The notes under the pieces: model-generated
Told to the model about the DNA's origin: nothing
What the model saw: only the letters and a program-made list of their open reading frames with translations
The model's database searches: none
Source: a bacterium
GTDB lineage: Bacteria > Patescibacteriota > Minisyncoccia > Moranbacterales > GWC2-37-73
Reading direction: 5' to 3'
DNA: 33,488 nucleotides
NCBI GenBank assembly: GCA_003251635.1
Contig: QKEW01000008.1
Span: 1 to 33,488 of the forward strand
In this document: positions 22,241-30,026 of the stretch, piece after piece
Layout: every line of letters starts with the position of its first letter
How positions within the stretch are numbered: position 1 is the stretch's first letter
Made by a program: the position numbers and the translations under genes

Positions 22241-22277
22241 ACCTGCCTATTATGACAGGTTTGTTTAGTCCTTACAA
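22241..22277 (-). promoter_or_regulatory. ABC operon promoter with an overlapping inverted repeat
   Basis: The -35 is TTGTAA (22272-22277), the spacer is 17 bases, and the -10 is CATAAT (22249-22254). The arms ACCTG/CAGGT at 22241-22260 flank the -10 and the initiation site, a typical operator position. The ATG is at 22240, so the message is essentially leaderless. Confidence 0.6.
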
Positions 22278-22283
22278 CATTGA

Positions 22284-22318
22284 AAAACCGCCCTTGTGCA
22301 ATGCACAAGGGCGGTTTT
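22284..22318 (-). terminator. Long GC-rich terminator hairpin, probably bidirectional
   Basis: The two 17-base arms (AAAACCGCCCTTGTGCA and its complement) meet with almost no loop. It begins eight bases after the stop of the 22326 gene, and short A and T runs flank it on both sides. Confidence 0.9.
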
Positions 22319-22325
22319 GAAAAAA

Positions 22326-24715: not shown

Positions 24716-24868
24716 ATGGACAATAATAAGTCTGACGCAAGTGTAAAAACGAGTTATATATGCCCAGGCTGTGGTGAAATTTATTTTGACAATATAACTA
24801 AAAACAAAACTTGCGCAAATTGCGGAGAACTACTCCGTGAGTTGCCGTGCGAAAGCATAGCCAGATAA
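24716..24868 (+). CDS. Small zinc-ribbon protein, 50 residues
   Basis: A complete frame runs from ATG to TAA, preceded by AGGGAGGG about 11 bases upstream. The product has two CxxC pairs, YICPGCGEIYF and KTCANCGELL, 13 residues apart, the layout of a rubredoxin-like or rubrerythrin-like zinc ribbon. A polar N-terminus and a short acidic C-terminus surround it. Such proteins bind zinc or iron and often act as small RNA- or DNA-associated or redox proteins; the role is open. It has its own promoter and a strong downstream hairpin, so it is a single-gene unit on the plus strand, just before thiI. Confidence 0.75.
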   Translation: MDNNKSDASVKTSYICPGCGEIYFDNITKNKTCANCGELLRELPCESIAR

Positions 24869-24940: not shown

Positions 24941-26125
24941 ATGCTGCAACCCAATCGCATCATTTGTCACTACGGCGAGCTGGCTCTCAAGGGCGGCAAC
25001 CGCAATTTTTTCGAAAAAAAACTGCAAGAAAATATTCAAAAAAAATTGGCTGCTTTTTTGCCTAGTCCTATTGAAAAAATTCGCCGCGAATATGGCCGGA
25101 TTGTCATTGAACTTGATTTTCCAAACCAAAAAGATTTGGAAAAGATTCAAAAAAACTTAGGTCAAGTTTTCGGTTTGGTTAATTTTTCAATGGCTTTCGA
25201 ATGCGACCTGGATTTGGAATCAATCAAAAAAATGGCCGTGGAAATTTTTGAGCCGCTTGAAAACAAAGCTGAGACTTTCCGCGTATCCACTCGCCGATCC
25301 AACAAAAACTTTCCCCTAAACTCCGAAGAGGTTAACCGTCAAATCGGCGCTTTTTTAGTGGAAAAATCTGGTCAAAAAGTTTCCCTCAAGAATCCGGATC
25401 AAACACTATTTCTGGAAATTACTGAAAAAAAAGTTTTCCTTTATTTGAAAAAAATTTCCGCTGTTGGCGGTCTTCCAGTCGGTACGGCTGGACGCGCCTT
25501 GGCACTGCTAAGTGGCGGACTAGATTCACCCGTAGCCGCCTTTTATGCTCTCAAGCGCGGCCTCAACGTCAACTTCATTCACTTTCATTCGCGGCCCCAC
25601 ACCAGTGCCGCTTCCGTGGAAAAAGTTTTTGAGTTGGCTAAAAAGTTGCAAGATTTTCAAGCCGGTTCCAAAATTTTTTCCGTGCCTTTTGCCCAGGTTC
25701 AAAAACAAATCATGCTGAATTGTCCTGAGAGTTTGCGCGTGATTCTCTATCGTCGAGCGATGCTCAAAATTTCCGAAGCGATTGGACGAAAAAATAAAGC
25801 TGGAGCTTTGATTACCGGTGATTCATTGGGACAAGTGGCTTCCCAAACTTTGGAAAATCTTTCAGTTGTTGGAGAGGCTTCCAATCTTTTGTTGCTGCGC
25901 CCTTTGATCACTATGGACAAAGAAGAAATCATGCAAAAAGCTCGCCAAATTGGAACCTATGACATTTCAATTTTGCCCCACGACGATTGCTGCACCCGTC
26001 TCATGCCCAAAAAACCTGAGCTTCATGCCAGACTAGATCAAGTGCTTGAAGCCGAGAAAAACTTAGACATGGAAAAAATCATTCAAGATAGTTTGGAAAA
26101 ATTGGAAATTATTGAACTGAAATAA
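24941..26125 (+). CDS. thiI: ThiI, tRNA 4-thiouridine synthase
   Basis: This 394-residue protein is started at ATG 24941, which gives the usual MxxxxIxCHYGELALKGxN beginning; a TTG at 24923 is less likely. The NFLD/THUMP region covers about residues 1-165 and binds tRNA. The PP-loop LLSGGLDSPVAAFYAL near residue 190 activates U8 of tRNA by adenylation. The segment HDDCCTRLMPKKP near 355 holds cysteines for sulfur transfer. The C-terminal rhodanese domain of the E. coli type is absent, as in many Gram-positive and CPR forms. A diverged copy of its last 100 bases lies at 26488-26587. Confidence 0.95.
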   Translation: MLQPNRIICHYGELALKGGNRNFFEKKLQENIQKKLAAFLPSPIEKIRREYGRIVIELDFPNQKDLEKIQKNLGQVFGLVNFSMAFECDLDLESIKKMAVEIFEPLENKAETFRVSTRRSNKNFPLNSEEVNRQIGAFLVEKSGQKVSLKNPDQTLFLEITEKKVFLYLKKISAVGGLPVGTAGRALALLSGGLDSPVAAFYALKRGLNVNFIHFHSRPHTSAASVEKVFELAKKLQDFQAGSKIFSVPFAQVQKQIMLNCPESLRVILYRRAMLKISEAIGRKNKAGALITGDSLGQVASQTLENLSVVGEASNLLLLRPLITMDKEEIMQKARQIGTYDISILPHDDCCTRLMPKKPELHARLDQVLEAEKNLDMEKIIQDSLEKLEIIELK

Positions 26126-26363
26126 AATGAGGCAGCGTGTACATGTACACCTGCCCCTTGTTATCCTCCCGAATATCAGTTTTTCGCTCACGCTACTAAC
26201 ACTGTCGGGAGGCACGCATATTTTATTGCCCATTTGCATTACCGCGCGCGCTTTGCACGATAACTCCGCAATCTGCCCTAGTCCTACCAGGAACGCAACA
26301 GAAACTAACCGGTATGTTCTGTTGCCGTGACAATGGCGCGAAGAATCTCACTGTCACCCAGTA
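26126..26363 (-). ncRNA. Candidate structured non-coding RNA, family not recognised
   Basis: A promoter at 26370-26397 drives a minus-strand transcript of about 235 bases with no credible reading frame. The segment is visibly richer in G and C than the flanking DNA. In the RNA it forms consecutive hairpins. The first is GUGACAGUG/CAUUGUCAC (26349-26357 with 26327-26335). The second is GCAACAGAA/UUCUGUUGC (26317-26325 with 26295-26303), one base away. A third is a small GUCCU/AGGA stem. The fourth is CCUCCCGA/UCGGGAGG (26205-26212 with 26165-26172) with an inner CAGU/ACUG. The last is a GGCAG...CUGCC end hairpin (26131-26155). The first stem contains a G-U pair that would be an A-C mismatch on the other strand, favouring a minus-strand RNA. 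It shows no RNase P, tmRNA, SRP or riboswitch core that I know. Confidence 0.55.
26131..26155. terminator. Hairpin between thiI and the candidate RNA
   Basis: GGCAG and CTGCC enclose the palindrome GTGTACATGTACAC. It follows the thiI stop by five bases and is also the end of the candidate RNA on the other strand, where TCATTTTATTT follows. It may end both converging transcripts. Confidence 0.55.
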
Positions 26364-26369
26364 ATAAAC

Positions 26370-26397
26370 ATTATATACACGCAAATAAAATTGTCAA
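26370..26397 (-). promoter_or_regulatory. Consensus promoter of the candidate RNA
   Basis: The -35 is TTGACA (26392-26397), the spacer is 16 bases, and the -10 is TATAAT (26370-26375). It is one of the two best promoters of the window, yet no protein gene follows it. Confidence 0.75.
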
Positions 26398-26411
26398 TTA
26401 TAATAAATCTC

Positions 26412-26429
26412 CCCGAGCTTAAGCTCGGG
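26412..26429. repeat. Perfect palindrome CCCGAGCTT/AAGCTCGGG
   Basis: A 9-bp perfect stem lies 15 bases upstream of the -35 of the candidate RNA gene, in AT-rich surroundings. It could be a regulator site, or a REP-like or terminator hairpin. The stretch from 26430 to 26487 shows nothing further. Confidence 0.5.
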
Positions 26430-26487
26430 AATTTAGAGACCTATTAAAATAAATTACCCAAACCACGCAACAACATGAAAAATTTTT

Positions 26488-26587
26488 TGCCAAGCTAAAT
26501 CAAGTGCTTGAAGCCGAAAAAAACTTAGACAGTGAAAAAATTATTCAGGAAAGCTTGGAAAAGTTGAAGATTATTGAGCTGCAATAA
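26488..26587 (+). pseudogene. Second, diverged copy of the thiI 3' end
   Basis: These 100 bases match 26026-26125 without gaps at about 85 positions. The frame is kept through to the TAA: the encoded end LNQVLEAEKNLDSEKIIQES corresponds to LDQVLEAEKNLDMEKIIQDS of thiI. Most differences are synonymous or conservative. No thiI sequence precedes it and there is no start, so it is a remnant. It may come from a second allele or paralog that was largely replaced by the segment holding the candidate RNA. Confidence 0.85.
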
Positions 26588-26621
26588 AAAAAGTGGCGAT
26601 GCATCTTTGTGCATTGCCACT
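26585..26621 (-). terminator. Terminator of the 26648 gene
   Basis: The 12-bp stem AGTGGCAATGCA/TGCATCGCCACT (one G-U pair) has a 6-base loop, and seven T follow on the minus strand. Confidence 0.9.
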
Positions 26622-26647: not shown

Positions 26648-26881
26648 TTAAAAAGTCTTCAAATCAGATTTTTTGAAACAAAAAACTGATCCGGAATGAA
26701 TTTTGTTTAAAATCTTAATTTTAAAAAACTGACCCCTTTCTCCACGCCATTCAAAAACTTCTTCCTCAACAACAAACCTGGTCCACTGCTCTAAAAAACG
26801 AGGCTTATGACCAAGGATTGGTTCTTGAAGATCAAACTCCAGCTTTTCTCTTAAAAGGTACTGTGCTCCCAATATAATCAT
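26648..26881 (-). CDS. Small unknown protein, 77 residues
   Basis: The gene starts at ATG 26881 with AGGGG eight bases upstream and ends before its own terminator, so it is a single-gene unit. The product is rich in Glu, Phe, Trp and Arg (RFLEQWTRFVVEEEVFEWRG) with alternating strand-like stretches and no membrane helix. I do not recognise a family. Its start type and composition resemble the unknown pair at 22326-23431 more than the housekeeping genes. The stretch upstream (26882-27048) is very AT-rich and holds no clear site. Confidence 0.65.
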   Translation of the reverse strand: MIILGAQYLLREKLEFDLQEPILGHKPRFLEQWTRFVVEEEVFEWRGERGQFFKIKILNKIHSGSVFCFKKSDLKTF

Positions 26882-29679: not shown

Positions 29680-29820
29680 TTAAAACAAGCCCATTTGACC
29701 AAAGAAAGTGAAGACTACCAAAGGAATACATGAAAGAAGAATTGCGAAGCTGGTTTCTTCTTGAGCTTCTTCTTGATTCCTTCTTTCCTCACATTGAGGA
29801 CAATTGCAAGCTTTTTTCAT
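29680..29820 (-). CDS. Small Cys-motif membrane protein, 46 residues
   Basis: The preferred start is ATG 29820, giving MKKACNCPQCEERRNQEEAQ, then one hydrophobic segment (FAILLSCIPLVVFTFFG) and a short tail. The CxCPxC group at the N-terminus could bind a metal. A longer frame opens at 29916, but its first 32 codons run through a 15-bp RNA hairpin. The gene has one of the best promoters of the window, two leader hairpins and a strong terminator, a large investment for such a small product. Family not recognised. Confidence 0.6.
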   Translation of the reverse strand: MKKACNCPQCEERRNQEEAQEETSFAILLSCIPLVVFTFFGQMGLF

Positions 29821-29831
29821 AAGCTTTTTTG

Positions 29832-29870
29832 GCTTTCGGCCTTGTCCTAAAATAAGACAAAACCGAAAGC
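29832..29870 (-). promoter_or_regulatory. 15-bp leader hairpin directly before the small Cys gene
   Basis: In the minus-strand RNA GCUUUCGGUUUUGUC pairs with GACAAGGCCGAAAGC over 15 bp including two G-U pairs, with a 9-base loop. The two G-U pairs would be mismatches on the plus strand. The stem ends 11 bases before the ATG at 29820. Confidence 0.65.
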
Positions 29871-29953
29871 TGATTTTAATTTTTATTTTTACCAGAGAAA
29901 GAAACTCTTTTTCCATTTTTTGCTTTTCTAGGAAAAATTACCTAAAAAAGACA

Positions 29954-29980
29954 AAAACGGGTAAAAGAATCACCCGTTTT
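29954..29980 (-). promoter_or_regulatory. Leader hairpin of the ACGGGTG type with U-tract
   Basis: The stem AAAACGGGT/ACCCGTTTT has a 9-base loop, and TGTCTTTTTT follows on the minus strand. It starts about 11 bases after the predicted transcription start, well before the gene. Confidence 0.6.
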
Positions 29981-29997
29981 CATATCTCTATAAGTCC

Positions 29998-30026
29998 ATT
30001 ATACACCCTTTTAGGTCGTTTGTCAA
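29998..30026 (-). promoter_or_regulatory. Perfect consensus promoter upstream of the small Cys gene
   Basis: The -35 is TTGACA (30021-30026), the spacer is 17 bases, and the -10 is TATAAT (29998-30003) preceded by TG. Both hexamers match the sigma70 consensus exactly. Confidence 0.85.

Follow-up and report, generated by a model that had tools for sequence, protein, structure and literature searches.

A candidate structured non-coding RNA gene within a probably late insert at thiI in a Moranbacterales genome

Does the DNA between thiI, a tRNA-modification gene, and a second copy of its 3′ end hold a gene for a structured RNA, and does that RNA stand for a new class? The original prediction had proposed both. 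Here, we report a computational analysis of this locus and of the window around it (the whole stretch of DNA that was analysed, 33.5 kb). The features are listed in Table 1.

Table 1. Features predicted at the thiI locus (positions are those of the window)
Feature	Position	Strand	Basis or remark
thiI 3′ end, first copy	26026-26127	+	Inside intact gene 24941-26125; reading frame intact
Insert containing the candidate RNA gene, ~360 bp	26128-26487		Bounded by thiI-end repeats
thiI 3′ end, second copy	26488-26589	+	15 of 102 bases differ; frame open, without a start
Predicted structured non-coding RNA, ~240 nt	26120-26364	-	Fold, G+C segment, absent coding signal
Sigma-70 promoter, TTGACA-N16-TATAAT	26370-26397	-	12/12 consensus; predicted start ~26361-26364
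Hairpin P1, 9 bp	26327-26357	-	Pair probabilities 0.79-0.98
Hairpin P2, 9 bp	26295-26325	-	Pair probabilities 0.66-1.0
Hairpin P3, 6-7 bp	26276-26292	-	Pair probabilities mostly 0.8-0.99
Hairpin P4, 14 bp, internal bulge	26234-26271	-	Pair probabilities 0.57-0.96
Hairpin P5, 16 bp, internal bulge	26165-26212	-	Pair probabilities mostly 0.81-1.0
Hairpin P6 (26157-26129) and tail TTTTATTT (26127-26120), probable terminator	26120-26157	-	Pair probabilities 0.8-1.0
Palindrome ahead of the promoter, forming a terminator-like hairpin on the minus strand	26410-26431		Consensus scan; resembles G101 repeated hairpin

The minus-strand promoter, described at first as near-perfect, proved to match the sigma-70 consensus at all 12 positions (consensus scan), and is one of two perfect promoters in the window (0.00 in 100 shuffles). 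The stretch downstream is also richer in G+C than its surroundings, as had been proposed (50.6% in 26128-26364, against 29% in 26365-26487 and 39% in the whole window). Maximal-segment analysis of 26126-26600 placed the maximal G+C-rich segment at 26129-26361, with a score matched in 1 of 2,000 shuffles; its right border (26361) is the start predicted by the promoter, and its left border (26129) is the final base pair of hairpin P6. Past P6 on the minus strand, a single A precedes TTTTATTT, which overlaps the thiI stop codon, and from this sequence the hairpin and its U-rich tail are probably the intrinsic terminator of the candidate RNA. The pair is absent from the terminator list of the consensus scan, probably because the stem is bulged. 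In our view, nothing argues more strongly for a single transcription unit than the agreement of borders drawn from composition only with those set by promoter and terminator. RNase P RNA, on a different contig of the same genome, has 50.3% G+C between flanks of 37%, so that the candidate is compositionally like a known structured RNA of its own genome.

The second perfect promoter (TTGACA-N17-TATAAT, 30026-29998, minus strand) has a strong hairpin of terminator-like form, AAAACGGGTGATTCTTTTACCCGTTTT, within ~30 bases downstream; the region 29940-30026 (minus strand) is possibly an attenuated leader ahead of a 78-codon frame (29680-29916). No other site in the window folds locally as strongly as 22241-22325 (minus strand; z of about −7.5), an intergenic hairpin, AAAACCGCCCTTGTGCA/TGCACAAGGGCGGTTTT, that is long and perfect and has the form of an ordinary strong terminator. 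Both sites were set aside as terminator-like hairpins between genes, unrelated to the candidate RNA.

At least four consecutive hairpins, the last facing thiI, had been predicted for the candidate. That part stood: six main hairpins form in a row on the minus strand (minimum free energy [MFE], −89.1 kcal/mol; z, −3.6), with pair probabilities mainly >0.8, and a further 3-bp hairpin at 26216-26229 is weak. The fold is clearly, though only moderately, unusual and not extreme, with equal stability in 1 of 300 shuffles, an equal number of firmly paired bases in 7 and an equally low ensemble diversity in 12; across the 33.5 kb, 4 to 6% of 120-nt windows reach z < −3 (sliding-window scan).

The position of this unit between thiI and a duplicated thiI end was borne out. 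The two copies are identical at 87 of 102 bases (85%), stand as a direct repeat at both borders of the insert, as in integrative elements that use gene 3′ ends, and keep the reading frame open; they are closer to each other than to the nearest other genus (g2). By manual count on the alignment, roughly half of the codons that differ do so synonymously, which suggests that both ends evolved as coding sequence before they were joined. The insert is single-copy in the genome, and no integrase gene was found in its ~360 bp, which gave no coding signal or family match. Past the second thiI end come a terminator-like hairpin (26595-26620), a 77-codon frame and alr, and in one relative (G002) alr and thiI are convergent direct neighbours, an arrangement suggesting that the insert came later into an older thiI-alr order. 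Judged from sequence, the insert at thiI is thus probably a late acquisition. The candidate RNA was not seen downstream of thiI in the relatives' sequences read for this purpose, which covered part of the loci (where thiI lay on the minus strand, the other flank was read); the DNA and covariance-model searches described below took in whole genomes.

Two short frames lie near the locus. The 77-codon frame on the alr side of the second thiI end (26648-26881, minus strand) has no Pfam match, was not found beside thiI in relatives and may have been acquired together with the insert. Upstream of thiI, a 50-codon frame (24716-24868, plus strand) encodes two CxxC pairs, with weak zinc-ribbon matches below cut-off and no counterpart found beside thiI in relatives.

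The candidate had been said to fit no known RNA class, and the searches agree: among Rfam 15 families (RNase P, tmRNA, SRP, 6S, riboswitches and others) there was no match at gathering score, and at a lax threshold all matches fell far below the gathering scores. Neither these nor the protein-family searches tied it to a known family, so the family match that would have refuted the prediction did not appear. DNA similarity searches gave short matches only, both in the relatives and in larger genome sets from the order (131), the phylum (380) and the class (384); these sets overlap, and the genomes listed by the searches included none from the same genus. A covariance model built from the single sequence (R1), and hence insensitive, returned only the self-match from the order, the class and the nearest relatives; its sole match in another genome, in the phylum set (G179, 24 bits), lies inside a protein-coding frame, aligned with large deletions, and was rejected, and a 25-base DNA match (G710) was taken as chance from its length and E value. 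Searches of phages and plasmids for the candidate RNA were empty, as were those of viral contigs and GTDB contigs, made with exact patterns that diverged copies would escape. A ThiI search found none in the viral contigs and distant relatives only in the genome contigs.

The lack of homologs in these searches counts in favour of the main rival explanation, in which the insert is decayed foreign DNA of higher G+C, a remnant of an element or of recombination, whose hairpins and promoter are leftovers and which makes no functional RNA. So do the duplicated gene end, of the kind that integrative elements leave, a G+C content that exceeds the window mean and the moderate fold statistic. What such decay fits poorly is the shape of the G+C-rich segment, which stops at the promoter start and the terminator and not at the ends of the insert (26365-26487 has 29% G+C), and the promoter itself, which is perfect and not decayed. 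We regard this explanation as unlikely, while taking it seriously.

The hairpins might instead act as DNA, or on the plus strand as the 3′ untranslated end of the thiI mRNA, as a terminator, a stabilising element or a site in single-stranded DNA. Strand preference had been argued from one stem with a G-U pair suited to the minus-strand RNA; such G-U pairs exist, but in several stems, and the argument is weak: the energy gap between the strands (−87.8 kcal/mol for minus versus −68.5 for plus; z, −3.5 and −2.7) is largely one of composition, because G is abundant on the minus strand, whose shuffles likewise fold better. The plus strand, too, beats its shuffles, and P6 lies directly past the thiI stop codon. 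On that strand, however, P6 has no U-rich tail, the perfect promoter faces the opposite way, and a terminator-like hairpin is at hand after the second thiI end (26595-26620), all of which makes a role as DNA or thiI mRNA improbable.

An artificial join of thiI ends from two strains during assembly is very improbable. The second copy does start abruptly in mid-frame, at 15% difference from the first, and the source genome may be metagenome-assembled; against this, the flanks fit (thiI and alr lie side by side and converge in G002), the region read has no run of N, the contamination estimate is 0.01%, and the RNA gene itself would stand even if the join were real.

The claim that ~235 bases hold no credible reading frame was upheld, since frames of at least 20 codons overlapping the candidate have codon-usage scores of −0.26 to −0.65, where the genes of the window score +0.08 to +0.47, and six-frame translations gave no Pfam or PHROGs match except one at chance level (E, 0.08). 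A short protein, such as one from the 67-codon frame that begins beside the thiI stop codon (26127-26330), is scarcely credible with a codon score of −0.39 and no family match.

We therefore lean, with moderate confidence, towards a stand-alone, structured non-coding RNA gene of ~240 nt on the minus strand, within the probably late insert. It is the best reading of a promoter, a G+C-rich segment that ends at the start and the terminator, a fold and an absent coding signal taken together; counting against it are the lack of a homolog in any search, and hence of covariation or conservation, and a fold statistic that is only moderate. The step from one such gene to a new RNA class, which the original prediction had taken, is unsupported, because no search gave a second example, which leaves a class without the covariation, conservation or function that would define it; that claim is premature.

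For this RNA gene, we infer from the sequence how transcription, termination, the mode and direction of insertion and any function might run. RNA polymerase would start at ~26363 from the consensus promoter, transcribe P1 to P5 and stop at P6 and its U-rich tail, beside the convergent thiI stop codon. The insert would have come by integration or recombination, as DNA of a close relative or as an integrative element carrying a thiI end, leaving thiI intact; homology-assisted recombination with a relative would leave the same pattern as an integrative element. The RNA would then most probably be cargo or a remnant of the acquired DNA and, if active, might be a trans-acting small RNA, regulatory or protein-binding. 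A more specific version, in which a structured RNA of a kind not seen before is the sole cargo of a tiny cassette that inserts at and restores the thiI 3′ end and is mobilised in trans in this reduced-genome lineage, we consider a long shot.

If transcribed, the candidate would add one well-bounded RNA gene for bacteria whose non-coding RNAs appear, from our impression of the literature, to be little studied, and would be one case in which an RNA gene was gained beside a gene for tRNA modification. Because the sequence stands alone, with no relatives found, it neither defines a class nor settles any open question.

Among known systems, IS200/IS605-type elements come to mind through the palindrome upstream of the promoter, which resembles the repeated hairpin of G101. 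This repeat is one 120-base sequence (CCCCGAGCTTACGCTCGGGG hairpin and an apparent coding end) near three contig ends (L040, L041 and L042, ~1501-1625); it probably broke the assembly, and the reverse-strand sequence beside its hairpin reads like a transposase C terminus. An IS200/IS605 origin was rejected: a search of the genome for the Y1 transposase (PF01797) found none, the palindrome occurs there only once, and these elements do not typically duplicate the target end. A match to the palindrome in G074 is flanked by two ordinary genes, and no element gene was seen there; we treat the palindrome as an ordinary terminator-like hairpin.

Integrative elements that use gene ends leave an imperfect copy of the gene's 3′ end on each side of the insert. 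The locus resembles SGI1 in trmE (PMC8409611) in that imperfect copies of a gene 3′ end flank the insert, the gene is intact and the target is a tRNA-modification gene; unlike SGI1, the insert is only ~360 bp and is without an integrase or other element gene. G+C-rich intergenic regions in A+T-rich genomes are an established route to RNA genes (the GC-IGR approach), and its authors report that many of them lack homologs even in close species and may represent rare classes or be functionless (PMC8632094). Orphan candidates of this kind are common. The thiI candidate is like those orphans (PMC8632094) in being long, G+C-rich and unannotated, with a predicted fold, an A+T-rich genome and no known homologs, and unlike them in that its promoter is perfect, a terminator is probable and a duplicated gene end surrounds it.
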